In this document: positions 8,450 through 39,991 of the stretch, piece by piece
Layout: every line of letters begins with the position of its first letter
How positions within the stretch are numbered: the stretch's first letter is position 1
Origin: Chondrilla cf. caribensis
Taxonomy: Eukaryota > Porifera > Demospongiae > Chondrillida > Chondrillidae
Assembly: GCA_964020155.1 (NCBI GenBank)
Contig: OZ026568.1
Location: 1,800,320 to 1,864,319, forward strand
DNA: 64,000 nucleotides
Direction: 5' to 3'
Notes under the pieces: model-generated
Told to the model about the DNA's origin: nothing
Databases searched by the model: none
Seen by the model: only the letters and a program-made list of their open reading frames with translations
Translations under genes and position numbers: made by a program

Positions 8450-8579
8450 GCGTGTGCGGGACGGTCCAGCTAGCTAGACTAATCAACCAGTCGCTACCGC
8501 TTTTCGATCCAGTCATGTCTAGTTGGCGTAACGACGGGGTCATAACCATTGTGTACGGTGTTATTCGGCGGGTGACAGG

Positions 8580-16745: not shown

Positions 16746-17248
16746 CTAGCTACTGGTGAAATTGTGCCCGTGATCGATAAAAGCTATACAAGAATAGTAT
16801 AATACATGTACGTATGTGCATGCGACTGTAAATTTCTCACCATTTAACACAAACTCCACCTGATGCTTTTTTGCATGATTTAATAATTGTTTTTCCCCAC
16901 TCTGGACAATAAATATGAGCATTGTACATGGATCCTTTGCAATCGTCACATCCAAAGCATTTATCTGCAAATATATATATTATTATGATATCAATAATAA
17001 TTTTAACTTCTTGTGATCGATACCATTGGAACTAAACTTGAAGATAATTATTCGTACCAAGATTGCATTCCTATTATTGTAGTACATGATTCTTCACAAA
17101 TGTATGTATATGGCTGGTACTACTGCAAGAATAATGATAATATTCCAATAGCAATTATTATGTACTCACATTTGTCAGCCTGAACTAGATGGTAATGGAA
17201 TGCCATTCCAAGCACCACTAAAAACAGAAAGACTCCTTTCCCCCACAT
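16746..17248 (-). CDS. Secreted Cys-rich peptide gene A (unrecognised family)
   Basis: Exons on the minus strand are 17170-17248, 16841-16964 and 16746-16752, with GT-AG introns of 205 and 88 bases, in phases 1 and 2. Predicted product: 69 aa. Exon 1 is a signal peptide (Met-Trp-Gly-Lys, a Leu/Val-rich core, then VQA as the likely cleavage site). Exon 2 encodes the mature peptide, with cysteines in the order CFGCDDC, then C-x10-C and C-x7-C-x2-C. It has one extra cysteine relative to its paralogues. Exon 3 adds one residue before TAG, so the terminal C-x7-C loop found in copies B and F is missing. A TATA motif lies about 90 bases upstream of the ATG. No known family is recognised; a defence or signalling peptide is a guess from size, secretion and cysteines. 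Confidence 0.6.
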
Positions 17249-17334
17249 TCTCCATAGATACCAAATTGAATCAAATAGACAACTTCTCAAACAATACCTT
17301 GAGCAGTAAATGAGCTAACCCCGAACTACAGGCC

Positions 17335-17342
17335 TTTTTATA
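17335..17342 (-). promoter_or_regulatory. TATA box of peptide gene A
   Basis: The minus-strand TATAAAAA lies about 90 bases before the start codon, in a block (TATAAAAAGGCCTGTA) conserved at copies B, C and the relic at 29525. The constant distance to the ATG in four copies supports it as the core promoter. Confidence 0.65.
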
Positions 17343-17394
17343 ACCACTGCCAGCATGTGTAAATCATGTGCTGCATCACAGGTGTTGTGTCCAG

Positions 17395-18180
17395 CTTGTA
17401 GCTTTGTGTACCACAAGGCTGGAGTCACTATGTCTGGCACTTGGTAACGGTCAAGCTTCATTGAGTGTGTCCAAATGATTATACATATGCAATTGTTATA
17501 TTTCTAGTGATCACCAAGGCAGTACACAATGGAAGTGTATCCTAATCAAAATTAATGGTATCTATCAGATGCATTCTTGAATGCATAATGTAAAATTAAT
17601 TATTGTAATAATTATCGTTTCATATTAATTGTATTCACCAACTGAAGGTAAATTACTATTATGATGAAGGTTTGATGGAGTGCACGATATATGACGGATA
17701 TGTAGTTATGTACCAATGTCTTCCTGCCTATATATGGCCTGTTATTATACGGTATAGTTTCCGGAGGTGTCAATGTGGCCACCTTCAGCTATGTGTACCA
17801 CAAGGCTGGAGTCACTGTGTCTGGCACTTGGAAACGGTCAAGCTTCATTGAGTGTGTCAAAATGATTGTATGTAATTACTACATTTCTAATGATCACCAT
17901 GGTAACCAAAGTCTATATTGAAACTGTATCCAATCAAAATCAATGGTAGCTTTCAGAAGCATCTTCAAATGTACATATATTGTAACTCTTTAATATTAAT
18001 TTTACTGCATGTATTAACTAAGTTTAAGGTAAATTACAATAATATTATAGTGAAGGTTAAATGGGGTACATGATATCAGATATATGTGTAGTTATGTACT
18101 ATGGTCTTCCTGTATTCATATGCCCTGTAATTATCCTGTATAGTCCCAGACTGTGTCAGTGTGGTCATGTTCACTGTCTG
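17395..18180. repeat. Two tandem copies of an approximately 390-bp upstream block
   Basis: The stretch starting CTTTGTGTACCACAAGGCTG near 17400 recurs at about 17790. Both contain TGTCTGGCACTTGG, AACGGTCAAGCTTCATTGAG and a run with CAATCAAAAT, and both end near a TAGTTATGTAC block. The same doubled arrangement lies upstream of gene B (about 21375 and 21760). Confidence 0.7.
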
Positions 18181-18899
18181 ACCCCATAGTACTGACTGTT
18201 ACTTATTATTCTCATACTAGCCTCATCCTCATTCTTCCCCCGTGACAAAATGAGTAAGGCTGTGTAGGCTGTGTGCTCAGTTTGTTTTCACATTCAATAT
18301 AGCTTCATATTACATCAACTCAAAAACTAAGTCCTATGTTCTCTCTAATGTACATAGGTCTATTTCACTAGGGTCAACCCTTATACTGTGAACAACTTGC
18401 TTAGTAAATACCTTGAAGGACACACAACATCTGTACTTCTTATCAAAGGTACTTACTATCAGTACTGGTTTACACGGGACTTAGTGATCGAGGCATGCTC
18501 GTTAACCAGAAGTGTGCACCAACCCAGGCGCTTACTAAACAAGTTACACTCCCTATTATCATAATTATATCAGTGCGGTGGTCTCGTTACGTAGCATGGT
18601 GGTCTTTGTAGATTGATTTTGTACGTTAGTCTGTTCATGCATACAATTTTAATAAGTACTGTACATGATAGTCACATACAGTCCTCAAGATTTTGTTTTC
18701 TCTCTCGTGCATTGTCAACAATTAATTTTGGGAAGTTATTGTATGTAAATAATCTAATGAATGGAATCACCATGGTTACTGACCACAAAAGGGACATGCA
18801 ACTTGGCTACCAGGGTTGTTAGTGAAGCAAATATTGTATTCTATATATGTCCCATGCATCCGCCAATGAAATTGCCATGGTGTATGCACGTGTATATGT

Positions 18900-18904
18900 G
18901 TGTT

Positions 18905-18981
<77 letters not shown>

Positions 18982-19088
18982 ATGTGTGTTGTGTGCGTGT
19001 GCGTATGTGTGTGTGTGCTGTGTGTGTGTATTATGTGTGTTTGTGTGTGTGTGTATGTGGTGTGTGTGTACTGTGTGTGTTGTATGTA

Positions 19089-19128
<40 letters not shown>

Positions 19129-19132
19129 TGTG
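18900..19132. repeat. (TG)n microsatellite, interrupted
   Basis: A pure run of about 80 bases at 18909-18980 is followed by interrupted TG tracts to about 19132. It is in the same array position as tracts near 14590 and 30830. Confidence 0.9.
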
Positions 19133-19600
19133 TGGAGGTGTTGATTCACATACCCTAGAACAATATTAGATGTATTGTCTTTATAAATGGGTGATAACTA
19201 ACTTGTAATTTAAATAAACTAATTACTACAAGGCTGAAGTTTGACACTTTATTTTGAGTTAATTAAGAAAATTGTAAATAAAACCATTTTTAATTGACTG
19301 TGATGTCTCACAATACTCACTGATTTGACATTGCATGAATATTTTGTAAAACGTACAGTGTTCTATCAATAAGTGAATAAAAATAGGTTTAATATATTAT
19401 GGTCAAAGACATGTTTACACATATATTATGTTGTGAATGATGTAATATCAGATATTTGCACTAGCGTTGTCTTTGAAGAATAACCACACAATACAATATC
19501 ATTAATTTGCATGGACTGTATGGAATTTAACATCAGAAGAGCTGACTATCAACCAAGCGGAATCAATATAAAGTCGCTAAAGGAGAAGAAAGAATTATTC

Positions 19601-19760
19601 AATTTATATACTATTATATAATATAATATTATATAATATGTTTTCTCGCAGATTTTAATTTTAATTCAACTTTAATTTTATTTTTATTATATATATTTAG
19701 ATATCTTGGCAACTAAAGGCATGACTAATACTAAAAAAAAAAAAAAAATTTATATACTAT
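19601..19760 (+). mobile_element. Short retro-insert with poly-A tail and 14-bp target duplication
   Basis: AATTTATATACTAT at 19601-19614 is repeated exactly at 19747-19760. Between them lie 132 bases that end in an A-run (about 19733-19748). Matching array positions near 16255 and 32695 (CAATTTATACTATTTACCAG) lack this segment and represent the empty site. Poly-A plus target duplication is the signature of LINE-mediated insertion, so this is SINE-like or a small retro-transcript. Confidence 0.7.
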
Positions 19761-20203
19761 TTACTAGCCGAATACAGTGTTGTAAACTTTGAAATGTGCA
19801 TGTAATTTGTAAACATGTTGTTCATTAATGTCATAGAGGCTCATTGCAATGTTGTTAATATCAGGGTGAATTGTTCTTGAGCAGATATGTAGCACAAATT
19901 ATTGACAATTTGATGGCATGGCAGGACATGATGTGCGCATGATGAAGCATGAGTGGGCCTATGTGGGTCATTCATCCACTCACAACTCACCCACATATAT
20001 TGCCATATATATTGTATATATTACTATAATGAAGATTTAATGGAGTATTGGATGTATAATATTATTTAGTTATGTACTATGGTCACCCAATCACACCTAA
20101 TCACACATGTCCTGTCCTGCCATCAAATTGTTAACAATTTGTGCTACACATTTATCTGCTCAAGAACAATCCGCCCGATGATATTCAGTAATTGTTAGAT
20201 ATT

Positions 20204-20383
20204 GAGACATAGGCGGAAGAATGGCTTGGCAAGTGGGGGGGGGGCTAAAAGCCATGGTACTGAACTCATGATTAATATTGCAATTGTGTCCATGTATGAC
20301 ATACTCTACATAGACATTCTTGGCCCCACCTTTGTGATGAGCCCCCCTGCCCCCCCCCCCCTTGTTCCCGCTGCCTATGTGAG
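20204..20383. mobile_element. MITE-like element with ACATAGGCGG ends and GAG target duplication
   Basis: Inverted ends ACATAGGC(G/A) occur at 20207 and, reverse-complemented, up to 20380, followed inward by G-run and C-run tracts (20226-20235, 20342-20361). GAG flanks both sides. Paralogous array positions at about 16345 and 26855 read straight through ATATTGAG(G) without the insert. Confidence 0.7.
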
Positions 20384-20675
20384 ATTATGCACATGTATAC
20401 ATTTGGGCTTGAAACTGTTTCACTGTTAATTGAGGCAATTAGGAACACCAGGCAGGCACCAAAGATATATTGGGAGCAGAGAATAGGGTCACACCATAGA
20501 CCCTATAAACTGTATGGTTTGTTAGATATAGGGTCAGACCATAGACCCTATAAACTGTATGGTTTGTTAGATATATGGTCAGAATGAGTGACACACAGAG
20601 GGAAGCCCAGAGCCAACTAGATAAGAGTATAGATCAATGACAGACCCATGAATTAAAATTTATGTACTTTCCTGA

Positions 20676-21207
20676 TCAGGCACACTTCCCAATGCCTGCA
20701 CTCCTACTGGTAAAAATTGAGAAATAAACCGTGCCCGTGATTGACAAAAGGTATATACGTAATAATAATTATTATAATAATTATTATTTACATGAACTGT
20801 TAATTTCTCACCATTTAAAACAGCTTCCATCTGGCCATTTTTTGCATGAATTATAATTATATTGTCCCACCCATGAACATGGAAGCTGCGCATTGTAATT
20901 GGACCCTAGGCCTGTGCAATCATCACTTTTGAAGCATTCATCTGCAAATGAATATAATGTCAATATTAAATTTAACTTCTTGTGATTGGTGCCATTGGTC
21001 TAAACTCAATGATACATATTTGTACCAAGATTACAGCTAATAATTTTTGCTGTACATTGGCTCTTCACAAATATAATATGGCTGGTACTACTGTAAGCAT
21101 AATTATATTATTCCAATAGCAATTATTATGTACTCACAAGTGCCAGCCTGAGCCAAATGGCACTGGTTTGCCATTCCAAGCACAACCAAGAGCATAAAGA
21201 CCCCCAT
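20676..21207 (-). CDS. Secreted Cys-rich peptide gene B (unrecognised family)
   Basis: Exons are 21138-21207, 20812-20941 and 20676-20706, with introns of 196 and 105 bases in phases 1 and 2; stop TGA at 20676-20678. The 76-aa product has a signal peptide (MGVFMLLVVLG, ending AQA) and a mature part with seven cysteines spaced C-x5-C-x12-C-x10-C-x7-C-x2-C-x7-C. The first two introns fall just after the signal peptide and before the sixth cysteine's last base, as in the other copies. It has lost the Trp-Gly-Lys start seen in A, C and D but keeps a good signal sequence. This copy and F are the most complete, since both have the terminal C-x7-C. Function unknown. Confidence 0.65.
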
Positions 21208-21295
21208 TCTCCAAAAGATACGAAATTGAATCAAATTAGACAACTTCTCAAACAAGACCTCGAGCGGTAAATGAGCTAACCCTGGAATACAGGCC

Positions 21296-21303
21296 TTTTT
21301 ATA
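21296..21303 (-). promoter_or_regulatory. TATA box of peptide gene B
   Basis: TATAAAAA on the minus strand, about 90 bases upstream of the start codon, is in the same conserved block as at gene A. Confidence 0.65.
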
Positions 21304-21992
21304 ACCAATGCCAGCATGTGTCAATCGTGCTGCATCACAGGTGTTGTGTCCTGCATGTGACCAGAGTAACTATGTGCCTCACAAGGCTGTGTCTGGCACT
21401 TGTTCACAGTCAAGTTCCTTTGAGTGTGTCAAAATGATTGTATGTAATTGCTAAATTTCTAGTGATCACCATGGCAACCACAGGTAGCTATGAAAGTGTA
21501 TCCTAATCAAAATTAATGGTACCTATCAGATGCATCCTTGAATGCATAATGTAAAATTAATTATTGTAATAATTATCGTTTCATATTAAATTTATTGTAT
21601 TCACCAACTGAAGGTAAATTACTATTATGATGAAGGTTTGATGGAGTGCACAATATATGACGGATATGTAGTTATGTACCAATGTCTTCCTGCCTATATG
21701 GCCTGTAATTATACTGTATAGTTTCCGGAGGTGTCAATGTGGCCACCTTTAGCTATGTGTACCACAAGGCTGGAGTCACTGTGTCTGGCACTTGGAAACG
21801 GTCAAGCTTCATTGAGTGTGTCAAAATGATTGTATGTAATTGCTACATTTCTAATGATCACCATGGCAACCAAAGTCTATATTGAAACTGTATCCAATCA
21901 AAATTAATGGTAGCTTTCAGAAGCATCTTCAAATGTACGTATATTGTAACTCTTTAATATAAACTTTATTGGATATATCAACTAAAGGTATA

Positions 21993-23936
21993 CAGTGGAG
22001 TCTGGATAAGTCGAAGTTGCAGGGAGTTAACCAAAATCTTCCACTTATCAGAAATTCACCTTAAGCAAACTACACTTTCATGGCTAGTACTGTACTCCAT
22101 AATTACTTCTGAATCAGCAACATACAGTAGTAATAGATCTCTAGTGATACAACAGTTATACAGTAATATGCATAATAGAATAAAGTACTGTATGTTTATA
22201 CAAAAATCATGAACTTGGTCCAAAATAATGAAGAATGTTTTTCTGTACTGCATTATCAGCAATACACTTCTCAACTAATGTCTGCAAACCATTGAGTGTA
22301 CGGTCACACTTGTCTGCATCACATTGCTTTTGCATAAAAAAGGTCCTCAACGTTGCAACTGCCTTGAAAGCTGATGTAGATGTGACAGGATCTACAGGCT
22401 CCCCACAATCATCATCTTGATTATCTTCATCATCTTCATCATTTTCATCTGTAACGTCACCTGATACAGCCAAGTTGGAGTCAACATTCACTAGATCACT
22501 GAATGACAGAGATGAAGCAACAATGCTGTTTTCCTGTAGGGTGGCCAGTTCATCTGGAGTGTCATCCTGGTCCTCTGTCTCTGTACTTTCTGTTGCAAAT
22601 CCTGCCTTTCGGAAGCAGTTACTGATTGTCTGTTGTGTAACGGACTGCCAAGCTGTACGCAAAGTGGACATGGCCTCTAGCAATGTGATGGAAAATTCCT
22701 TCATTTCACCCCCAGCATCGATATGACTCAATAAAATTTTCATTATAACTCGACGATAGTGGCACTTGAGATTATAAATTATGCCTAAATCACAGGGCTG
22801 TAGTTTAGCAGTTGTATTCGGTGGCAGAAAAACGAGGTTGGTAGCTTTGAGGTTGGTAACCCGAGGATGTGCTGGACAGTTATCAACGAGTAGTAAAACT
22901 TTCCTTTGCTGTCGATGCATCTTCTGATCAAACTTCCGAACCCAAGATGCAAAAATTTCTCCAGTCATCCAGGCCTTCTGATTTGCTTCATATTCAGTTG
23001 GTAAATGCTTTATCCCCTTGAAGCACCTTGGCTTTTTAAATTTACCGATAATCAAAAGGGGCAACTTCTCACTTCCATCACTATTTGCACATACCAATCC
23101 AGTAATGCGTTCTTTGGACCTTTTGCCGCCACTACAGGTTTCCCCTCTAAAAGCCATGGTTTTGTCAGGAAGTAACCTCCAGAATATCCCAGTTTCATCA
23201 GCGTTGAAAATATCTCTTGGGTGGTAGTTCTGCACTAACTTGGGTAGAACATCTGTGGTCCATTGGTTTACGACTGTTGGGTCAACAGACATACTCTCAC
23301 CACAAATGCTCTTAAAAACAATATTGTGGCGCTTTTTAAATCGATCTAACCATCCTGCACTGCAATGCCATCCCTCTATACCCAGTCCTTCAGCCAGCGA
23401 TTCAGCTTTTGCCATCAAAATAGGACCATTAACCGGAGCGTTGCTCGAACAAACACATGAAAACCAATGTAGCAAAGCCTTGTCAACTTCTTCGTATTGA
23501 GCGGGTCTCTGTCGTTTTTTATCCACATTTACCGTTCCTCCATAAAAAGCGTCGAGATACTTATCCTTATTCTTGAGGATTGACGATAAGGTATTAGGTG
23601 GGATGTGGAAATCTTCTGCAATTTCTTTCTTCTTCTTACCAGGAGGCTTATTTTCAGTAGCTTCAATCAGCTCTACTTTTCTCTTTAAAGGCAAGGTGTT
23701 CAACTTCTTAGTGGCCATAACTAGGAGCAAGCAGGTGTAAACTTCGCGATAACCAGACTATTTTCTGGCGGGGTCCGGATATTATCCTTGAGTTATCCGG
23801 AATTTCGTGTTATGCGAACTCGAGTTATCCAGATTATAATGTACAGAAAGTATGGAGCTTTGGATGGGGACAATAAAATACTTCGAGATATGCAGAAATT
23901 CGAGACAACCGAGTTCGACTTATGTGGACTCCACTG
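21993..23936 (-). mobile_element. Complete Tigger/pogo-type DNA transposon
   Basis: A 1944-bp element. Its ends begin CAGTGGAGTC and have inverted repeats of about 23 bases with a few mismatches (left CAGTGGAGTCTGGATAAGTC, right CAGTGGAGTCCACATAAGTC when reverse-complemented). TA lies on both sides, the expected Tc1/mariner-pogo target duplication. It interrupts the array block that continues unbroken near 18005-18040. Subterminal motifs of the type GAGTTATCCGGA / GAGTTATCCAGA occur near 23792 and 23822. One long open frame fills most of the interior. Confidence 0.92.
22207..23718 (-). CDS. Tigger-like DDE transposase, apparently intact
   Basis: One uninterrupted frame of 503 aa, starting at the MATKK methionine at 23718, which has a better start context than the upstream ATG at 23730. 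Domains in order: an N-terminal helix-turn-helix of psq/CENP-B type (about residues 5-60, with IAEDFHIPPNTLSSILKNK), a second CENP-B-like DNA-binding HTH (about 70-140, ending GWLDRFKKRHNI), then a DDE_1 catalytic core. The three catalytic aspartates are in NADETG (D174), LLLVDNCPAH (D279) and LQPCDLG (D310), a DD30D spacing typical of pogo/Tigger. The C-terminus is Asp/Glu-rich and ends YFGPSS. The intact frame, near-matching ends and TA flanks suggest a young, possibly active copy. Confidence 0.93.
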   Translation of the reverse strand: MATKKLNTLPLKRKVELIEATENKPPGKKKKEIAEDFHIPPNTLSSILKNKDKYLDAFYGGTVNVDKKRQRPAQYEEVDKALLHWFSCVCSSNAPVNGPILMAKAESLAEGLGIEGWHCSAGWLDRFKKRHNIVFKSICGESMSVDPTVVNQWTTDVLPKLVQNYHPRDIFNADETGIFWRLLPDKTMAFRGETCSGGKRSKERITGLVCANSDGSEKLPLLIIGKFKKPRCFKGIKHLPTEYEANQKAWMTGEIFASWVRKFDQKMHRQQRKVLLLVDNCPAHPRVTNLKATNLVFLPPNTTAKLQPCDLGIIYNLKCHYRRVIMKILLSHIDAGGEMKEFSITLLEAMSTLRTAWQSVTQQTISNCFRKAGFATESTETEDQDDTPDELATLQENSIVASSLSFSDLVNVDSNLAVSGDVTDENDEDDEDNQDDDCGEPVDPVTSTSAFKAVATLRTFFMQKQCDADKCDRTLNGLQTLVEKCIADNAVQKNILHYFGPSS

Positions 23937-26900
23937 TATTACTATTATAATGAAGGTTTAAAGGAGTACATGATATCAGATGTATGTGTAGTTATGTACC
24001 ATGGTCTTCTTGCATTCGTATTGCTTGTAATTATCCCGTATAGCCCCAGACTGTGTCAGTGTGGTCATGTTCACTGTCTGACCCCATGATACTGATTGTT
24101 ATTTATTATTCTCAGACTAGCCTCATCCTCATTCTTCCCCCATGATGAAACAAGTAAGACTGTGTTGACTGTGTGTTCAGTTTGTTTTCACATTCAATAG
24201 CTCCATATTATGTAAATTAACCTATACTCTAAGTCCTATGTTCTCCCATCTAGGTCTGTTTCACTAGGGCCAATTTACATACTGTAAACATCTATTACAT
24301 ACTGGACATGCAGAAAGGATATTGACATTATAATATGTACTGTGGTATTAGTAAGCGTTTGTAGCAAAGAATCCCATCCTCAGAGAATGTGAGCACAGTA
24401 TCCTCAAGCTCATCTTTGAAAAACAAGTCTGGTACTGTTTTGTGTTTCTACGCTATAGGTTGTTGTCATGCAAATGGTATGTTACTTAGTTTCATTATCT
24501 TGTGTCATCTTTCCTTCTGATTACAAAAGCATATCACACAGTCTTGGTGTACTTTACCCAAAACTATGTATTCTTGTAATCTTCTGATACTTTGTAAAAA
24601 TATGGCAGGACAAAAAGAAAATATGTGTAGTAAAGGAATTCCATACATACCTGGAACTTTCACTATCATGGTATTATGGCTATCATCAGTACTAGTGTTG
24701 TGTTCTCGTTAGTAAGAGGGCCTTTTGTAGTAGATTGATCTTGTATTTTAGTCTGTACATGCATACATAATTTCACTAAGTAATGAACTGACGGTCACAG
24801 ACCACATGAATATGATCTCTCTCGTGCATTGTCAACAATTAATATAGGGAAATTATTGTACGTATGTAAATACATAATTAATGGAATCACCATGGTTACT
24901 AACCACAAGTTGTTTTATTATTTAGTGGGACATGCAACCTGGCTACCTGATCAAGTGGGTTGTGAAACAAATATTGTATATTTATATATGTTCCATGCAT
25001 CCAGCAATAAAATTTAGGTTTAATTGCTAATAAATATAATATTATAGTTAAAATAGTGGTATTCCATCATGACATGTGTGTATGTGTGGGTGTGGGTGTG
25101 TGGGTATAGGTGTGATTTTGGGTGTGTGCATTCCTGTGTGTGGAGGTATTGCCTCACATCCGCTGTTATTAAGTGTGTGTGTATGTATTTTAATTATATT
25201 GATTAAAAATAATGTGCACGTTTTTTACATGCGGCCAATGTATACCGTCTGCATATGGACATGTGGAAGGGCAAGTGTTTGATATTGTACGTATGTCCTC
25301 ATACAATATCCCAACAAGTGTAAATGGAGTGCATAAACAGATTACAATGCCAGCCAGACTGTAGGTTCAAGCTGGCAGTTAGCATTAGCATAACAAATAT
25401 AACGTTGATAGTCAACTTTAGTTTATAATAATTTAAGTGTCACCTTAAACCATGAAACTATTCAAGTGCTTGAGTGATGCATAAACTCCTCCAATTATTT
25501 GTTCAGCTTTTGCACTTTGAACCATAGTGGTAGAACCACATGTTTGTATTTCACAGGATACCCAAAAGTGCAAAGTTAACCCATCTTCTGATCATGTTGC
25601 TGTACATAATATATCCAATATACATAAAGAGTATACATATTAATGTTGTTGGCCAGAAACCTTAACCACCAAACATGTCAGATCTACAATTAATGTCACT
25701 ACATTCATGTCTGTGATGTAGAGAAAGGCAAGTATACAGATAGCAATGTTCACTTTAATATCAATCTGAATGTGGTATTCTTGGGAGGAAGGTGGTGCTA
25801 TAGTAGCTGTAGACAATCACATGCACCTTATTTGTACTCTTGTGTACAGTTTGTAAGATATGACTACACGTAGCACTATTGTTTCTTGGTGCATTACTTA
25901 ATATGCCTATTACATATCACTCCATTACATGGTGCATACTGCATATATTATACATCTGACCTCATTACAGATGGTGACATGTTTGCTGGCCCTATCAAAC
26001 AGGAAGTAACAAAATTACCGATAACTATAATAGAATTTTTAAAGCAGCCTTCAATGGATAAGTGAATATAATAAAATTATTGTTGCATATAGACAACTTC
26101 ATTCCTATTAGCATATAAAGCAAAAGAAAAACTAGGGACTTTTGATTAGTGCTATGGGACGTATGACATCCTCCAAAAACTTCCTGGTTGTATAGTTTCT
26201 GGCAACACCAACCAAAAACTTGCAATTGTGTACATTCAACAGTTCAAGGATACAGTCTATATAACATGTACCATAATAAGTGTTACATTCAACTTCATTA
26301 ACATGCTAAAGTTTTACATTTTTTCCCCGATGAGACTTCAACTGAGGATTTTGTTTGGAAGATTCCACAGATTTACAGTGAGCAACATTGCATGGGAGAT
26401 CCAGAATTATTTCTGCCAAACTTGGGACAGGTTGTATAGCTCATGCATGCTCAAAGTGATATGTAAGTAATTATCAAATAGGGATTTCAGACTGACAGTC
26501 AGATGTAAATAATTATTAGTTTTGTTTTTATTACTACATTATTGTGGTAATATCAAAATTAACCAATATTAATTGATCCTAATTAATTGATATTATTGTA
26601 GATTGTTTTAGCTTTAATTTTAAAGTAATTATGTGGCCTAAATATTGATGCCATAAAAGTTCTAATCTATGATTTTCTCCATCTTTCTTGCCTAACACTA
26701 GCCATCACCATCTTCACTCCAAGAGTAGTCACTGAAGGGGATGTAGGAATTCCTTTAATTTATTATATACTAACGCTGAATCCAGTGTTGTGAACGCTGA
26801 AATGTCATGTAATTTGTAAACATGCTATTCAGTGATTGTTAGATATTGAGGTCATGCACATGTATACATTTGGATTTGAATCTGTTTCACTGTTGTAACT

Positions 26901-28030
26901 GGGACCTTGCAATTGTGTACATTCAACAGTTCAAGAATATAGTCATTAATGAACATGCATAAGTTTTACAGTTTTCATAGATGAGACTTCACCTGAGGAT
27001 TTTGTTTGGAAGATTACACAGATTCACTGTGAGCAACATTGCATGGGAGATCCAGGATTATTTCTGCCAAACTTGGGGCAGGTTGTATAGCTCATGCATG
27101 ATCAAAGTGATATGTTAGTAATTATCAAATGGGGATTTCGGAGTGACAGTCAGATGCAAATAATAATTATTATTTGTTTTCAATGCTATACTATTGTTGT
27201 AATTTAATGGTCTTAAGAAATCAAAATTAACCAATATTAATTGATCCTATCTTAACTGATATTATTGTAGATTGTTTCAGCTTTAGTTTTAAAGTAATTA
27301 TGTGGTGTAAATATTGATACTATAAAATTCTTATATTATTGTGATTTTCTTGATCTTTCTTGCCTAACACTAGCCTTTGTCATCATCATGAATCCAAGAG
27401 TAGTCACTGAAAGGATGAAGGAATTTCTTCAATTTACTAATAATACTAGCTGAATCCAGCGTTGTAATGAAATGTGTATGTAATTTGTAAACATGCTATT
27501 CAGTGATTGTTAGATAATTATTATTGAGGTTATGCACATGTATAGATTTGGGCTCAAACTGTTTCACCGTTGAGACTCTATGATATAATATTAGATATAT
27601 ATGAGGAGTCATTAATCATTGAAAGGAGTGTAGTATTCAAGGTAGTATAGGGGGTTGCTACCATTAAACCAACACTTATTTGTAGTCATTGAAAAGGAAA
27701 ATTTCATCATGTAGAGTGCAAGCCCATGTAGTCCAACCCTCATGTTGGCTCTTCAATTTTTGCGCAGTTGGGTGGAATAGAGGTTATTTTGCAGGAAGTG
27801 TTGGAATTGGTATTCATTGTAATATGGCTGAGGGGCGGACAGGTGAACTAAAGCAGAGGCACCAATAGAGAGAAGGTAGACCGACTATGCATGAGGAACA
27901 CCAGGCATGGTCAGAATGAGTAACACACAGAGGGAAGACCAGAGCCAGTAGGAGTATAGATCAATGACAGACCCATGAATTAAAGGCACTTTCCTGATCA
28001 GGAACACTTACCCAATGCCTGCATTTTTCT
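23937..28030. other. Array spacer between Tigger and peptide gene C
   Basis: No gene seen. It resumes the block interrupted by Tigger, then has a weak TG-rich tract (25074-25175), the AACCATAGTGGTAGAACCACATG block near 25520 and two nearly adjacent copies of a block with TTTGTTTGGAAGATT (about 26340 and 27000), each followed by TTGGTTAGATATTGAG-like sequence. The last shows a local duplication of about 660 bp. Confidence 0.5.
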
Positions 28031-28530
28031 TCTGGTAAAAATTAAGAAATCATCTCTGCCCATGATTGACAAAAGGTGCATATACATGCATACTGTGTAT
28101 GTGTAGACTGCTATTTCTCACCATTCAACACAGTTTCCACCTGGCCATTTTTTGCATGAATTGAAAACATATCTTCCCTTCCATGGACAAGAAAACTGCT
28201 CAGTGTAATGGAATCCTGTGCAATCATTACTTTTGAAGCAATTATCTGCAAATATATAAAATATGATTATCAAATATCACTTCTTGTGATTGGTGCCATT
28301 GATCTAATCTCAAGGTTAGGTATTAATTTTGTATGAAGATTACAGCTAATTGTATGCAGTGCATAGATATCCTTCACCGATGTATATGGCTGGTACAACT
28401 GTAAGCATAATTATAGTATTATTCTAATAACAATAATTTTCATGTACTTACAGTGGTCAGCCTGAACCAGATGGTACTGGATTTCTATTCCGAGCACAAC
28501 CAAAAGCAGAAAGACTCCTTTCCCCCACAT
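28031..28530 (-). CDS. Secreted Cys-rich peptide gene C (short C-terminus)
   Basis: Exons are 28452-28530, 28122-28245 and a third from 28031, with introns of 206 and 90 bases and the same phases as the family. Exon 1 is a signal peptide (MWGKGVFLLLVVLG, ending VQA). Exon 2 has five cysteines, C-x5-C-x10-C-x10-C-x7-C. With the conserved splice sites the stop codon is split across intron 2: TG at the end of exon 2 plus A from exon 3. The product is then 67 aa and lacks the last two cysteines of B and F. It could be a shortened working peptide, a decaying gene, or use another acceptor. Confidence 0.55.
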
Positions 28531-28619
28531 TCTCTCAAAAGATACCAAATTGAATCAAATTAGACAACTTCTCAAACAAGACCTCGAGCAGTGAATGAGC
28601 TAACCCTGGACTACAGGCC

Positions 28620-28627
28620 TTTTTATA
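28620..28627 (-). promoter_or_regulatory. TATA box of peptide gene C
   Basis: TATAAAAA on the minus strand is about 90 bases before the start codon, in the conserved promoter block. Confidence 0.65.
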
Positions 28628-29165
28628 ACCGCTGCCAGCATGTGTCAATCATGTGCTGGATCACAGGTGTTGTGTCCAACATGTGACCAGAGTAGCTATG
28701 TGTACCACAAGGCTGGAGTCACTGTGTCTGGCACTTGGTAACGGTCAAGCTTCATTGAGTGTGTCAAAATGATTATATTATGCAAATGTTACATTTCTAG
28801 TGATCACCAAGGCAACCACAGTCCACAATGGAAGTGTATCCTAATCAAAATTAATGGTAGTTATCAGATGCATCCTTGAATGAATAATATTATTGTAATT
28901 GTTTCATATCAAAATTTTATTGTGTTTACCAACTGAAGGTAATTACTATTATAATGAAGGTTTGATGGTTTGAGTGTACGATAAATGACAGATATGTAGT
29001 ACGTACCAATGTCTTCCTGCCTTCATATGGCCTGTTGATATACTCTATAGTCCCAGGATGTGTCAATATGCCACCTTCAGCTATGTGCCCCACAATATTA
29101 TACATAGTATTCAAAACACTAGTTAAATTGCAAGCCTTTCATCAATTCATCAATTTATACAAGAA

Positions 29166-29220
29166 CAAGTAATTTGAGTCCAAAAACTCATGGGGCTGCC
29201 GCCCCCGCACTCAAATTACT
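29166..29220. repeat. Hairpin insert (AAGTAATTTGAGT arms)
   Basis: AAGTAATTTGAGT near 29168 is matched by its reverse complement ACTCAAATTACTT near 29208, around a GC-rich loop. It is part of a segment (about 29140-29455) with no match in the parallel block near 30040, so an inserted, probably mobile, sequence is likely. The element family is not recognised. Confidence 0.55.
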
Positions 29221-29454
29221 TGGGCATCTTTCTTAGTTTCAAAAGAACCTTCGCTGAAGTTAATACGCTTGACAGAGGCTTCAGCACACAATAACGAGGC
29301 CAATTTCTCATTGTCAGCGTTCAAAATCGCCCATCTTTTGTCACGCAATATCAATTCATTGTTGCGGCAACGCGTAGGAGCACATACAAATAATATATAG
29401 TATATTTATTCATATTATATATTATATCGGATAAGCGTTACATATCAGAAGGCA

Positions 29455-30040
29455 GACAGCCAAATTGGACAACTTCTCGAACAAGACCTTGAGCAGTGAA
29501 TGAGCTAGCCCTGGAATACAGGCCTTTTTATAACCACTGCCAGCATGTGTCAATCATGTGCTGCATCACAGGTGTTGTGTCCAGCATGTGACCAGAGTAG
29601 CCTTGTGTTCCACAAGGCTGGAGTCACTGTGTCTGGCACTTGGTAACGGTCAAGCTTCATTGAGTGTGTCAAAATGATTATATGCAAATGTTACATTTCT
29701 AGTGATCACCAAGGCAACCACAGTCCACAATGGAAGTGTATCCTAATCAAAATTAATGGTAGTTATCAGATGCATCCTTGAATGAATAATATTATTGTAA
29801 TTGTTTCATATCAATTTTATTGTGTTTACCAACTGAAGGTAATTACTATTATAATGAAGGTTTGATGGTTTGAGTGTACGATATATGACGGATAAGTAGT
29901 ACGTACCAATGTCTTCCTGCCTTCATATGGCCTGTTGATATACTATATAGTCCCAGGAGGTGTCAATATGCCACCTTCAGCTATGTGCCCCACAATATAA
30001 TACATAGTATTCAAAACACTAGTTAAATTGCAAGCCTCAT
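29455..30040 (-). pseudogene. Promoter-only relic of a peptide gene
   Basis: This stretch duplicates 28560-29117, the 5' flank of gene C, with about nine in ten bases matching by eye. It includes the TATA block at 29525-29532. The coding exons that should lie at lower coordinates are replaced by unrelated sequence (about 29140-29455). It is therefore a decapitated unit: promoter kept, gene lost. Confidence 0.7.
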
Positions 30041-30821
30041 GGGCTAAACTGTGTGAGTTTCAGAGATGGTGTTAATAGCCGGAGTAAAAGAAGAAGCTCC
30101 TCAGAGAATTTGAGCACAGTATCCTCAAGCTCACAAGTTACTTAGTTTCCGATGATATCATCTTGTGTCATCTTTCCTTCTGATTACAATAAGCATATCG
30201 TACAGTCTCAGTGTACTTTGCCAAAATTTAGCATTTTGTTAGTATTGTAATAGTTAATATATAAAACTATGGCAGGGCAAGAAGGGCTATATGTATAGCA
30301 AAGGAATTCCATATACATACCTGGAACTAGAAATCTTAGATTTACATTGTACAATTTGCTAGTAAATACCTTGAAGGACACACAACATCTGTTCTTCTTA
30401 TCAAAGGTACTTACTATCAGTACTGATTGACACGGGACTTAGTGAGGTGTGCTCGTTAACCACAAGTGTGCACCAACCCAGGTACTTACTAAACAAGTTG
30501 CACTCTATATTATCATAGTCATATCAGTGAAGTGGTCTCGTTACATAGTGAGATGGACTTATGATGGTCACAGTCCAGAGGAATATGTTCTCTCTCTCGT
30601 GCATTGCCAACAAGTAATTTTGGGAAATTCTTGTATGTAAATATATAATTAGTGGAATCACCATGGTTACTGACCACAAAAGGGACATGCAACTTGGCTA
30701 CCTGATTTGTTTGTGAAGCAAATATTGTGTTTCATATATGTTCCATGTATTCACCAATAAAATTCATCAATTTCCATAGTGTATGCTCATGTGTGCATGT
30801 GTGCGTGCATGTGTGCATGTG

Positions 30822-30825
<4 letters not shown>

Positions 30826-30888
<63 letters not shown>

Positions 30889-31171
30889 CTGTGTGGGGTT
30901 TTGATTCACATACCCAATAACGATATAAGATGCATTGTCTTATAAATGGATGATAACTGACTTGTAATTTAAATAAACTGATGACTACTAGGCTGAAGTT
31001 TGACACTTTATTCTGAAGTACCTAGAAGGACATTTAGCCTGAAAGGAGACAGTATGACAAAGTGTCTGGAAAGTCTGTGCACAAAAATTTGTGAAGCAAG
31101 AATAATTGTATTTTTGTATATGTTCCATGCATCCACCAATGGAAATATTTTAGTGGTATCCATTATTACAT

Positions 31172-31240
<69 letters not shown>
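30826..31240. repeat. Two (TG)n microsatellites
   Basis: Pure TG runs at about 30828-30888 and 31171-31240 flank a repeated block with a TATATGTTCCATG motif, which suggests local duplication of the microsatellite with its flank. Confidence 0.9.
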
Positions 31241-31242
<2 letters not shown>

Positions 31243-33186
31243 CTTGTGTGTATACATGCATTTGTGCCTGTTTTGACTCACATCCCAGACTGTTGTTATT
31301 AAGTGTGTATGTGTCTAACAGTATTGAACTAAAGATGATGTACATGTTTCTTAGTGGCAGCTATACTGTCTGTGATGGACATGTTGAAGGGCAAGTGTTT
31401 AGCATTGTCCTCACATAATATCCCAACAGGGTGCACAGAATGTATAAACAGAGTACAATGCCAGCCAGACCACAGGTAAAAATGGCAGTTAGCATTTGTT
31501 GTAATAATATCGTGATGGGTAACTGGAGATAGTAATGATTTGAGTGTCGTCTCGTGTCATGATACCATTCAAGTGCTTAAGTGATGTATGAACTCATCCA
31601 ATAAATGGTTTACCTTTGGCACTTTGAACCATAGCAGCAGAACCACATGTTTGTATTTCACAGCTTTACTCTATGGGATACCCAAAAGGTGCATGGTTTA
31701 CCCAACTGTACTTACTTTACTTATTGACCATGTTGCTATACATAATATTCCAGTATACCACCCAACATGTCAGATCACTTACACCTCAATTGTACTTTTG
31801 TGTACTGCTTGTACAGATGTGACTGCATTGAACATTATTACTTTCTTGGTGCATAGCTTAATATGTGCGTATCACTCCATTACATGGTGCATACTGCATA
31901 TACAGTATACATACATCTGACCTCATTACAGCTGGTAATCTGCATACTAGCCCTATCAAACAGGGAAGTATCAAAGTTACTGATAACTCTAGAAGTTGCA
32001 AAGCAGCCTTCAATGGATAAGTGAATAGAATATTGTTGTATGATATAGACAACCTCATGTGTCTATAAGCCTATAAAGCAAAAAAAAAAAAAAAACTGGG
32101 GAGTTTGGAATAGTGCTATGGGCATGACATCCTCCAATAATTTCCTGGTTGTATAGTTTCTGGCAACACCAACCAAAAACTTGCAATTGTGTGCATTCAA
32201 CAGTTCAAGGATAATATAGTCGTAGTATAGCATGTATCATAATAAGTTTTACATTCAACTTAGGAATTTAATAAAATACTAATAAAAACTTAGAATTGTG
32301 TTCGGAAGAGTCCACAGATTTGCTGTGAGTAACATTGCATCGGAGATCAAGCATTATTTCTGCTAAGCTTGCATTGGGAAGGCTGTTTGGCTCATGCATG
32401 CACAAAGTGGTATATAATTATTATTATTATTTGCTTTGTAATGTAATATTATTATTGTAATTATAATGATTATGAGAATCAAAATTAACCAATATCAATG
32501 ATCTTATCTTTAAGTTAACTGATATTGTTGTAGATTGTCTTAGCTTTACTTTTAAAGTAATTACGTGGCCTAAATATTGATACTATTAAAGTTTTTATCT
32601 GTGATTTTCAGGAGCTTTCTTGCCTAACACTACCCTCTATCTTCTTAACTCTCAGGGTAGTCACTGAAGGAGATGAAATAATAATTATTACTTCAATTTA
32701 TACTATTTACCAGCTGAATTCAATGTTGTAAACTCTAAAATGTGCATGTAATATTTGGTAAACATGTTTTTCATTGATTGGTAGATAATGAGTTCAAACA
32801 CCTGTATACATTTGGGCCAGAAACTGTTTCACTGTAGTGACTACATATAAAGTATATATTCATCAAAAGAAGTGTTGTATTCAAAGTAGTATACCATTAA
32901 ACCAACACTTATTTGAATACATTGACAAGAAAAAATCATCATGTAGAGTCAAGCTCATGTAGTCCAACCCTCATTTTGGCTCTACAATTTTCACATGGTT
33001 GGATGCAATGGAGAGGTTATGGATGCAGGAATTGTTGGAATTAGTATTCAATGTAAAGTGGTCAAGGGGCGGAGACAGCAGTAGAGGGATAGTAGACGGA
33101 CTAAGCATGAGGAACACCAGGCATGGTCAGAATGAGTAACACACAGAGGGATGCCCAGAGCCCACTAGATACAGTAAGAGTACAGG

Positions 33187-33771
33187 TCAAGGATGGACCC
33201 ATGAATTAAATGGACTTTCCTGATCAGTCACACTTCCCAATGCCTGCATTTTCTTACTGGCAAAAATTAAGAAATAAGCTTTGTCCATGATTGACAAAAG
33301 TATTCGAATTATTATATTATAACATGTGAGGTGACTGATAATTTCTCACCAGACAACACAGTCTCGAGCTCCTTCTGAATATTCTCTGCATGATTTAAAG
33401 ACATGCTTTCCCCACCATGGACAAGAAGACGGCTCGTTGTAATTGACTCCTGTGCAATCATCACTTTTGAAGCATTCATCTGCAAATAGATAAAATGTCA
33501 ATATTAAATTTATAATATTAACTGCTTGTGATTGGTGCCATTGGTCTAAACTCAAAGATAATTATATCAATTTTGTACGAAAATACACCTAATTTACTGT
33601 AGTACATGGATTCTTTACAAATGTATATGGCTGGTAATACTGTAAGGATAATTATAGTAAATATTCTAATAACATAATTATTATGTACTCACATGTGGCA
33701 GCCTCAACCAGATGGTACTGGATTGCCATTCCAAGCACCACCAAGAGCATGAAGACTCCTTTCCCCCACAT
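33187..33771 (-). CDS. Secreted Cys-rich peptide gene D (extended, frame-shifted C-terminus)
   Basis: Exons are 33693-33771, 33350-33479 and 33187-33256, with introns of 213 and 93 bases in phases 1 and 2; predicted product 92 aa. The signal peptide begins MWGKGVFMLLVVLG and ends VEA. The mature part has C-x5-C-x10-C-x10-C-x9-C-x2-C. Exon 3 is homologous to that of gene B but carries a one-base length difference near its start, so it is read in another frame. The final cysteine is lost and translation runs on to a later TGA, ending about 22 residues after the sixth cysteine. The TATA region reads TATATATA (33861-33868), shifted from the TATAAAAA of A-C but at the same distance. Confidence 0.58.
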
Positions 33772-33860
33772 TCTCTCAAAAGATACCAAATTGTATCAAA
33801 TTAGACAACTTCTCAAACAAGACCTTGAGCAGTGAATGAGCTAACCCTGGACTACAGACC

Positions 33861-33868
33861 TATATATA
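33861..33868 (-). promoter_or_regulatory. TATA-like element of peptide gene D
   Basis: TATATATA lies about 90 bases before the start codon, at the position of TATAAAAA in copies A, B and C. Confidence 0.55.
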
Positions 33869-34682
33869 ACCACTGCCAGCATGTGTCAATCATGTGCTGC
33901 ATCACAGGTGTTGTGTCCAGCATGTGACTATAACAGCCTTGTGTACCACAAGGCTGTGTCTGGCACTTGTTCACAGTCAAGTTCCTTTGAGTGTGCCAAA
34001 ATGATTGTATGTAATTGCTACATTTCTAGCGATCACCATGGCAACCACAGTATACAATGAAAGTATATCCTAATCAAAATTCATGGTAGCTATCAGATAC
34101 ATCCTTGAATGTGTATTGTAATCATTTCATATTAATTTATTGTATTTACTAACTGAAGGTGTATTAATATAATGAAGATATAATGGAGTGCATGATATCT
34201 GATGTATAATATTATGTAGTTACATACCACTGTCTGCCTGCTTTCATATCATGGCCTGCAATTATACTGTATAGTCCCAGACCGTATCAGTGTGGCCATC
34301 TTTACTGTCTGATTCAATGTTACGAACAGTAATTTATTCTATACTTAGGGTAGCCTCATTCCCATTGTACATAAAGGAATTCCATATTTGGAATCAGAAG
34401 TTTCAGATTCACACAGTTGAGTTGAGCTTGCTTAGTAAGTACCTTCAAGGACAGACCACATCAGTACTTTTTGTTGGTGATATATACTTGCTATCAGTAC
34501 TGGTGGATGTGTACTTGAGCTAGGGACTGGGTTGTGTGCTCATAAACCCAGGAGTATGTACCAACCCAGGTACTTCCTAACAAGCTACACTGTTTATTAT
34601 GGTCATATCAATGAGGTGGTCTTGTTGCTGAGGGGGTCTATTAGATACATAGTGTTCTTCTAGACTAAGTACTGTACATGTA

Positions 34683-34861
34683 TACAGTGAGACCTCTCTA
34701 TAAAGGACACTTTGAGACCTCAATTCTAGTCATTATAATAGAGGTTTCCTCAATTCAGAGGTCACTTAATACACTACCTTACTAGACTCGGACACAGAAT
34801 GGTGTCCTTGTTATAGAGGTTTCCACACTTTGGAGGTTTGTAATATAGAGGTCGCGCTGTA
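34683..34861. mobile_element. MITE-like element (TACAGTGAGACCTCTCTATAA ends)
   Basis: The left end TACAGTGAGACCTCTCTATA is mirrored by AATATAGAGGTCGCGCTGTA at the right end. TA at each tip fits a Tc1/mariner-pogo type target. Internal copies of AGAGGTTTCC and TAGAGGTC repeat. It has no coding capacity. Confidence 0.65.
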
Positions 34862-35100
34862 ATTTGTACATGATGTATACGTATACGTAGATTAATTGTG
34901 TATGTTGGGCTGTGTGCACACATAAGTATAATTACAGGGTAATGTACATACACAGGAATATTATGCTTTCTCTCTCATTCATTCGTAAGATTCAGCCTGA
35001 AAGGAGACAGTGTGACTAGGTATCCGGAAAATCGGATTTCTTCAATGTCTGGTTAATAATTCTATTTACATTTGTCATGTATAGCATGTAATAATTAAGT

Positions 35101-35102
<2 letters not shown>

Positions 35103-35198
<96 letters not shown>

Positions 35199-35211
35199 CC
35201 ACACCCACACA

Positions 35212-35248
<37 letters not shown>
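35103..35248. repeat. (CA)n microsatellite
   Basis: Near-pure CA for about 145 bases, with a few CC interruptions around 35199-35216. Confidence 0.9.
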
Positions 35249-35250
<2 letters not shown>

Positions 35251-36061
35251 TACCTACATTGTTAGTATTTAATTTCAAATTTTTTTGAATGTAAATATGT
35301 AATCAACGGAATCACCAAGGTTACCAGCCAAATGCCACAAATCTCATCATTCTTAATTAAGTGGAACATGCAACTTGACTACCTGAGTGGCATGTGAAGC
35401 AAACATTATATGGCTCCATACATCCACCAATCAAAATCATTAGTGGTATTATGCATATACTATGTCATTGAGTAAGGCTTTCGGATTGCGATAATAATAT
35501 TATAATTTCAACTGTTTTCAGGTAAATCTGTTTGGATTCAGAAGTGTTGGGTAACGCAGTCTGGAGAAAAGATTTCTACATCTGGACGTTTCAATCCTAC
35601 ATGTGAATCATCTTGAGCAGTCAAAGTGCCTTGGGGTTACCATCCTTAAATAGTGTTTGGGCCTACCACCAAGACACTTCCTATCACATGACACCTGCTC
35701 CTTGGGTGGGGTCTATGATCAATCTAAAAGCTAGACCTTATATGTCTGCTCAGTTCAAAAATCAAAATTATTATCTACAGATCTAAAATTTGTAAATATT
35801 TGCTTCTGTTTTCAATATTATTATATCAATATTAATATAATTAAAATATATTTATGAATGTAGTGAATATTTTGAAACCACATATAATGGTTTCTCACTA
35901 AAGATTACAAAGTTCACTGTTAATGTAAATCATTTTAAGGCTTGTATCTCTACATTCTCTCGTGATTTGGGCTGGAAGAAATAAGCAAATGAAACAAAAA
36001 TATAATATTATATGTCAGAGTTAGAAGATGCGAAATAAAAATGCAACATTCAAGAAGTGGT

Positions 36062-36242
36062 TCAGCACCAGGTGGCTCCCAGGTAAGAACTGTACTTTGT
36101 ACATGATATAATATGCATGTACGTACCTGTGTGCAATTTTGTGTGTGGGGTAGGCAGATGTGGGTTTGTATCTGTGCGTATGTATGTGTGTGTGTGGGTG
36201 GGTGTGTTTTGTGTTTGGGTGTGTGTGTATGTCTCTCTCTGT

Positions 36243-36328
<86 letters not shown>

Positions 36329-36419
36329 GTGTGATTCTATGTGTTTGTGTGGATATAAGTGTGTGTTTGTGTATATGTAGGTATCTGTGTGTGTTGTGTG
36401 TGTGTTGTGTGTGTGTGTG

Positions 36420-36477
<58 letters not shown>

Positions 36478-36864
36478 ATGGAATGTGCATGAACTACATA
36501 ACATTGTGTAAATATGTGTATGTGTAAGTATGAGTGATTTGTGTGTACGTAAAAGTGCATACATGCGTATGTATGTGTTTTATGCTGGCATGTGTGTTGA
36601 TTATGTGTCTGTGTATGTATATGTGTGTATGATGTTTGTACATTGTATTCTGTGTCAGGGTTTGACAAAATGAATATGTCTGTCTTTATGATTTAAGTAT
36701 GCATGTGTTATATTTTGTATGCGAGAATTATTGTATGTCTATGTGTTGGTGTGTAGGTTCACATGTACATGTGTACGTAAAGTATGAATGTACATTTGTT
36801 TTTGGTATAAACTTAATTGTGTCTGCCTGTGTTTGTGTGTTTGTGTTTGCACGATAATGTGTGC

Positions 36865-36930
<66 letters not shown>

Positions 36931-37419
36931 ATGTGCGTGTGGATGCATATGTGCGTCTGTGTGATTGAACACGTGTGGCTATGTGTCTGTGAGTGTATAT
37001 ATATGTGTGGTAAATTATAAGATCTGGTGTACACATTATCTTACCAAATATTGCATTCTCCGGTAGAAACATCTTTGCAAGCAGCATAATGACTTTGTAG
37101 ACATGGAACTGGCTCGGGTATGAAGCCTCCACCACAGACCACATCGTAATAGCAGTTAACTGTAAGAGTACCAAAAAACAGCATTATCAATGATGTTTCC
37201 AATCTTCACGCCATATTGGGGAAGTCAAAATGCCAAACGTGTACAAACCTAGACTCCTAGAGGTGTGTGTTCATGGAACTCCCAGCACCACACCTTACTG
37301 GTGGCCTAACCTCAAGATCAGTTGGTCAACTTACAATTGCTATCTTCTGCTTCAGTCTGTTGGAGTATGGCTCCAAGGACAGCAAATAGCAAGATCACAC
37401 CAAATCCTTTCGCAAACAT
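36062..37419 (-). CDS. Secreted Cys-rich peptide gene F (diverged member, long intron 2)
   Basis: Exons are 37335-37419, 37045-37159 and 36062-36089, with phases 1 and 2 as in the family. Intron 1 is 175 bases. Intron 2 is 955 bases, swollen by three TG-rich tracts. Predicted product: 75 aa. The signal peptide begins MFAKGFGVILLFAVLG and ends TEA. The mature part has seven cysteines, C-x5-C-x10-C-x7-C-x7-C-x2-C-x7-C. Apart from the cysteines it shares little sequence with A-D, yet the small third exon restores the same terminal C-x7-C as gene B, followed directly by TGA. That agreement is the main support for choosing the acceptor at 36090-36091. A TATAAATT motif is at 37469-37476, 50-57 bases before the ATG. 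Confidence 0.58.
36236..36928. repeat. Three (TG)n tracts inside intron 2 of peptide gene F
   Basis: TG runs at about 36248-36326, 36420-36474 and 36867-36929 with TG-rich sequence between. Long open frames here (Thr/His on minus, Cys/Val on plus) are microsatellite translations. Confidence 0.9.
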
Positions 37420-37468: not shown

Positions 37469-37476
37469 AATTTATA
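37469..37476 (-). promoter_or_regulatory. TATA-like element of peptide gene F
   Basis: TATAAATT on the minus strand, 50-57 bases upstream of the start codon. Confidence 0.4.
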
Positions 37477-39710: not shown

Positions 39711-39991
39711 AATACATCGCATACACCAAGTTAGTGTGTGTCCATAGGCACTCTATCATACTACGTAGTATAGAGTATATGGCATGTCTAATCGGCGCCG
39801 AGGTCAGATCATTGACATTATTGTATAGAGGTGCATCTGATCATTATTGAGTAGAATTGCATCTGCTCGATCCCATTCCGAATTCAGTTCGAGCACAATA
39901 ATAATTTGTAACTTGAACATGTGGCGTATATACACCTACGTACGTATTCTTCTTTTGATTTGCTGTATGATCCTCCGTCGCAGCATATAAG

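Follow-up and report, generated by a model that had tools for sequence, protein, structure and literature searches.

What do five small and similar loci on the minus strand of a sponge genome encode, and are they genes at all? The loci lie in a 64,000-nucleotide (nt) stretch of the Chondrilla cf. caribensis assembly GCA_964020155.1 (contig OZ026568.1, positions 1,800,320 to 1,864,319 of the forward strand), referred to as the window, and positions below are those of the window. A reading of the sequence alone, hereafter the sequence-only reading, had described them as a tandem array of genes for secreted, cysteine-rich peptides. The five copies, designated A, B, C, D and F, form a real-looking and unrecognised small gene family; the sequence family appears to be new, while its general kind is well known. 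The best explanation, which has roughly an even chance of being correct, is that five or more genes here form a lineage-specific family encoding secreted, disulfide-stabilised peptides of about 43–46 residues. These would be fast-evolving effectors, likeliest in chemical defence, with the array having grown through tandem duplication of segments of about 4–5 kb.

Gene architecture and the cysteine framework

The five loci (5/5) have a common arrangement, as had been proposed: an ATG exon with a hydrophobic leader, a phase-1 GT..AG intron and a cysteine-rich exon, all on the minus strand. In copy A, the signal-peptide exon (17170–17248, 79 nt) ends in phase 1, and the cysteine exon (16840–16964) runs as far as a TGG codon that is followed by TGA or, on the alternative reading, by a candidate donor GTGAGA. 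The corresponding exons lie at 21138–21207 (70 nt) and 20811–20941 in B, at 28452–28530 (79 nt) and 28121–28245 in C, at 33693–33771 (79 nt) and 33349–33479 in D, and at 37335–37419 (85 nt) and 37044–37159 in F, where TGG is followed by TAA or a candidate donor GTAAGA. In B, exon 1 has 9 nt fewer and stays in frame; in C, it codes for a glutamate within the hydrophobic stretch. Translation would begin at ATG codons at 17248 (A), 21207 (B), 28530 (C), 33771 (D) and 37419 (F). The TATA box claimed for each locus was also found, as a TATA-like box upstream of the ATG in 5/5. It reads TATAAA in A (17337–17342), B (21298–21303), C (28622–28627) and F (37471–37476) and TATATA in D, within the TATATATA box at 33861–33868. 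The distance from this box to the ATG is 94–97 bases in A–D and 57 in F.

The leaders have the features of signal peptides, with a grand average of hydropathy (GRAVY) of 1.33–2.32 in their mid-part and the endings VQA, AQA, VQA, VEA and TEA. Signal peptides are cleaved after small residues at positions −3 and −1; the cleavage sites were assigned by this rule and are predictions. The mature peptides so predicted are 43–46 residues long (4.7–5.3 kDa), begin with D, G, D, A and E, none with tryptophan, and place the first cysteine 4–6 residues past the assumed cleavage site.

The framework C-x5-C-x10-12-C-x7-10-C-x7-9-C-x2-W is present in 5/5 exon-2 peptides, in which five cysteines, two glycines and the last tryptophan are invariant; the sixth cysteine in exon 2 of A is not common to the other copies. 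A strict pattern, C-x5-C-x9-14-C-x5-11-C-x6-11-C-x2-W-stop, gave five matches in the window, which are the five loci, and none in 200 kb of flanking DNA or in 60 first-order Markov windows. With a looser cysteine pattern the outcome was identical, the same five in the window and none in either the 200 kb flanks or the 60 Markov windows. Matches with five or more CV/VC pairs were dropped from these scans.

The C-terminus can be read in two ways. Exon 2 ends in TGG-TRA-G in every copy, which can be a stop codon or a phase-2 donor; both readings fit because a phase-2 donor of the form TG/GTRAG automatically reads through as tryptophan-stop. The sequence-only reading had favoured a donor leading to a very short third exon, a proposal that was not supported, as its acceptors give products inconsistent in frame among A–D: CS in A, CRSAGIGKCA in B and CKKMQALGSVTDQESPFNSWVHP in D, each followed by a stop, and an immediate stop in C. 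The proposed third exon of C is a single base, making TGA, and the tail of D comprises 23 residues. For F, the proposed end at 36062 lies about 1 kb downstream, past CA repeats; the acceptor filter did not return 36062, and its single listing for F is 1,073 nt from the donor. A, C and D have a second candidate acceptor, at 199, 237 and 249 nt from their respective donors, whose use would yield CQSTSPLLLPPLYFTL and a stop in A, CRSTFSLLVPLL and a stop in C, and a tail beginning CPSTIPLLLSPPL in D. These tails are more similar to each other than those from the earlier acceptors, but the filter did not return such an acceptor in B or F. The seven-cysteine spacing that had been proposed falls with the third exon, since cysteines 6 and 7 lie in an exon that was not confirmed.

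Splicing is favoured by the donor-like context in A–D and the distant F, by the odd number of cysteines in four copies and by the lack of a nearby polyadenylation signal. No AATAAA, ATTAAA or AGTAAA was found within about 580 nt past the exon-2 stop of any copy, nor for F across the 1.8 kb scanned. Were TGG-TRA-G a donor, different last exons would add variable tails to a single scaffold.

Duplication history and divergence

At the level of DNA, A–D are tandem duplicates and F is an old, distant member. Copies A–D have blocks of 1–2 kb in common that include the promoter, exons, intron and flank, and the repeats extend from about 14.9 to 37.8 kb of the window. The ATG-to-ATG steps along the array are 3959, 7323, 5241 and 3648 bases, the longest of which contains a transposon of about 2 kb. 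In the non-coding tree, B groups with D (support 0.96). What F has in common with the other units is limited to about 70 bp of flanking DNA. Its whole protein nevertheless scores 27.6 bits against the A–D profile, a value reached by 0/2000 full shuffles (maximum 11.3) and 0/2000 shuffles of the leader and mature parts separately (maximum 13.1).

Searches of the 137-Mb genome (37 contigs) revealed no further copies beyond A–D, F and a promoter-only partial duplicate, E; these searches give lower bounds. Searching with exon-2 DNA recovered D, C and B but not A, an omission that illustrates how limited a DNA search is here. With the promoter plus exon 1 as query, all of A–D and E were recovered; the D peptide returned A–D and one chance match, and the F peptide returned F, which is out of reach of both the DNA and the D-peptide searches. 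The chance match (C23:3378483, E 0.58) was rejected; its surroundings, judged by eye, look like an intron of a dihydropteridine-reductase-like gene.

E (29461–30037, minus strand) is a recent duplicate of the region upstream of C, with 96% identity to 28556–29137; it carries TATAAA at 29532, and no exons were found. The sequence-only reading does not list it. Upstream of A lies a tandem duplication of its own (17380–17787 and 17765–18173, 74% over 426 columns). This duplication is also present upstream of B, and may be a repeated regulatory unit.

The region had been described as looking gene-free, which does not quite hold, as a 516-amino-acid (aa) transposase frame lies inside it. This open frame (22207–23757, minus strand) belongs to a Tigger/pogo-like DNA transposon and matches DDE_1 (E 2.7e-48), HTH_Tnp_Tc5 and CENP-B_N. 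The element spans about 21986–23939, with the inverted ends CAGTGGAGTC and GACTCCACTG, in the region upstream of B. It inserted after the A/B duplication, because the paralogous A unit is uninterrupted at that point (18021/18040).

Pooled pairwise divergence among A–D is 0.11 in the upstream region, 0.08 between the TATA box and the ATG, 0.19 in exon 1, 0.20 in the intron, 0.27 in exon 2 and 0.31 downstream. The proportion of nonsynonymous differences (pN) is 0.13 in exon 1 versus 0.27 in exon 2, so that a conserved leader is joined to fast-changing mature residues. With cysteine and tryptophan codons removed, pN in exon 2 rises to 0.32, the synonymous proportion (pS) is 0.30 and the intron value is 0.21; the excess of pN over the intron has a bootstrap share at or below zero of 0.0044. 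This suggests positive selection in the mature part, relative to the intron only.

The sequence-only reading had stated that a lack of constraint on cysteines and splice sites between copies would count against it. Such constraint is present: the cysteine codons are kept in A–D, and intron 1 retains its GT/AG sites in all five loci. Twelve of the 42 ungapped exon-2 codons are invariant in A–D and include all five cysteine codons (chance 9e-4). Gap runs in exon 2 are of 6 bases only, and those in the intron are of mixed lengths. The cysteines are therefore fixed while the loops between them are nearly free. Together, the cysteine pattern, the profile score and the divergence support the earlier interpretation in this respect: duplicated genes for secreted, cysteine-rich peptides, with a conserved leader and a diverged mature part.

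The same figures can be asked whether A–D are decaying instead, with one or two working genes and the others drifting under relaxed constraint towards pseudogenes. With kappa fixed at 2, a codon-model grid has its peak at an omega of about 0.5 for exon 1 and of 1.0–1.3 for exon 2, and rejects omega 1 for neither. For exon 2, omega 0.5 is lower by 3.4 log units over the whole exon and by 2.5 without cysteine and tryptophan codons. The peak near 1 in exon 2 speaks for decay, as do the glutamate in the signal peptide of C, its proposed third exon that stops at once and the loss of exons from E. On the other hand, 4/4 frames are open, 5/5 cysteines are kept in all four copies and the exon-2 indels are in frame. 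In a neutral simulation of 20000 trials (star tree, 10% change per branch, set for intron-like pairwise divergence), all four frames stayed open in 0.8%, all cysteines were retained in 0.5% and both in 0.02% (0.0002 of trials), shares that lower, upstream-like rates would raise. Decay of this kind is regarded as a rather improbable account of the array.

Comparison with known peptides

The statement that no family could be recognised agrees with searches of Pfam, NCBIfam and PDB sequences. Pfam gave no match for 5/5 exon-2 peptides at E ≤ 10, NCBIfam gave chance-level matches only (PRK14890 at E 0.024 and TopJ at E 0.11, one member each), and nothing among PDB sequences fell below E 0.14. The PDB candidates were rejected as chance-level: the RelA-associated inhibitor (E 0.14) followed by AMA1 (0.81) for D alone, and a best E of 0.67 for F. 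Kinship with JTB was also considered, as the JTB extracellular part (2kjx) has a similar C-x10-C-x10-C run. It was rejected: the profile of the five copies matched no PDB entry but 2kjx, at a chance-level E of 0.34, and 0/5 peptides matched Pfam PF05439. The genome does have another match, at a different place, that passes the JTB cut-off.

A set of 5.8 billion proteins contained no match for the peptides. As a control, the intronless neighbouring frame at 39974–41923 returned 36 entries at E ≤ 1e-5, including the window's own, with two relatives at 65%, which shows that the set does cover related DNA. The absence of the peptides is weak evidence, because calling of open reading frames (ORFs) would likely miss small spliced genes. 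No paper was recognised in the literature, judged by titles and abstract openings, as describing this peptide family.

Conotoxin families have a conserved leader. Their intercysteine loops evolve fast and their cysteines and cysteine codons are preserved, according to an excerpt of one study (PMC3823881). The likeness to conotoxin-type families is in evolutionary mode only (duplicated genes, conserved leader, fast loops and preserved cysteines); omega here is near 1 and not clearly above it, and the peptides themselves were compared only through the libraries searched. An inhibitor cystine knot (knottin) has six cysteines paired I–IV, II–V and III–VI, whereas B, C, D and F have five.

Barrettides, asteropsins, stryphnines, aculeines, recifin and neopetrosiamides are likewise small, disulfide-rich sponge peptides. 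In excerpts of the sources cited here, a signal peptide is reported for barrettides and stryphnines, and introns and several variants for barrettides (PMC8713285, PMC13418204). Barrettides form a beta-hairpin with two disulfides, I–IV and II–III, and have a segment between leader and core (PMC13418204, PMC8713285); the present peptides differ in having five cysteines and only 4–6 residues from the assumed cleavage site to the first of them. Stryphnines also have such a segment and are of 3–4 kDa (PMC13418204), versus about 5 kDa here. The length of aculeines, 44 residues (PMC13418204), is similar to the 43–46 of this family, but aculeines have three disulfides and an N-terminal residue, derived from tryptophan, to which a long-chain polyamine is attached (PMC9655573). 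The predicted N-termini here are not tryptophan and 4/5 copies have five cysteines, a comparison made by published description.

Putative function and genomic setting

Chemical defence is considered to have about an even chance, and signalling or self-recognition a distinctly smaller one. Defence peptides fit best because the scaffold is constant, the loops change and the genes are duplicated in tandem. Each gene would be transcribed from its own TATA promoter, and the signal peptide would be removed past the small −1 residue where exon 1 ends. The cysteines would then pair by oxidative folding in the secretory pathway, and the peptide would act outside the cell. Each copy may present a different surface on one scaffold, directed at microbes, foulers, grazers or neighbours. 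As a lead only, other sponge peptides are reported, in an excerpt of PMC13418204, to be active against barnacle settlement. More tentatively, the array may be an undescribed host defence-peptide family with its own C-x2-W-ending framework, a diversifying arsenal in the style of conotoxins, laid out as a complete tandem array in a sponge and thus in an early animal lineage.

Several observations weigh against the best explanation as a whole. The predicted net charge of the mature peptides ranges from +3.8 (A) to −5.1 (F), which is unlike a simple cationic antimicrobial set. Exon 2 supplies an odd number of cysteines, five, in every copy except A, which has six, so that the peptides may require another exon or have to form dimers. 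The mature part of F alone is weak against the A–D profile, with 9.9 bits that were reached by 3/2000 shuffles and 18/2000 cysteine-fixed shuffles. The pN of non-cysteine residues is not above their own pS (bootstrap share at or below zero 0.35), and an exon-2 omega not clearly above 1 is compatible with relaxed constraint. The absent polyadenylation signal does not favour a short gene ending at the exon-2 stop. The AlphaFold2 model of D exon 2 (five sequences; mean pLDDT 45.4, pTM 0.16), which has two low-confidence strands at 28–32 and 38–42, is uninformative and too poor for a fold search.

The peptides could instead be secreted ligands or recognition factors that signal between the sponge's own cells or mark self, diversifying with a receptor. 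Secretion, stabilisation by cysteines, own promoters and the low upstream divergence (0.11) would suit such a role, and a multi-membrane protein with a cysteine-rich N-terminal part adjoins the array (39974–41923), although a pairing with it is speculation. Fast change at most non-cysteine mature residues is unusual for a conserved ligand, and this alternative is regarded as rather improbable. That the loci are chance cysteine-rich frames inside a repeated non-coding element, not genes, is very improbable: A–D do have whole 1–2 kb repeated blocks in common, coding or not, but the cysteine pattern is rare, exon-2 indels keep the frame, and F has the same architecture with hardly any common DNA.

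The surrounding DNA holds several frames on the plus strand. The frame at 39974–41923 is a 650-aa single exon with many hydrophobic stretches and a cysteine-rich N-terminus, and has no Pfam match at 1e-3. Beyond it lie a 1482-aa frame with four macro-domain stretches (51563–56011; Pfam Macro, E 1.1e-96) and a protein kinase domain (58994–60097). On the other side of the array, two similar transporter-like membrane protein frames (3306–4397 and 8532–9599) appear by eye to be tandem paralogs and gave no Pfam match at 1e-3.

The discovery of cysteine-rich peptides in sponges has been called surprisingly rare, with genetic data missing for several, in an excerpt of a 2026 account (PMC13418204). 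If expressed, the array described here would tie small, cysteine-rich peptides to a defined locus in a sponge genome. The cells that produce them, the divergence of the copies from one individual to another and the targets of the peptides could then be studied. It also points to a class of genes that ORF-based protein databases may miss.

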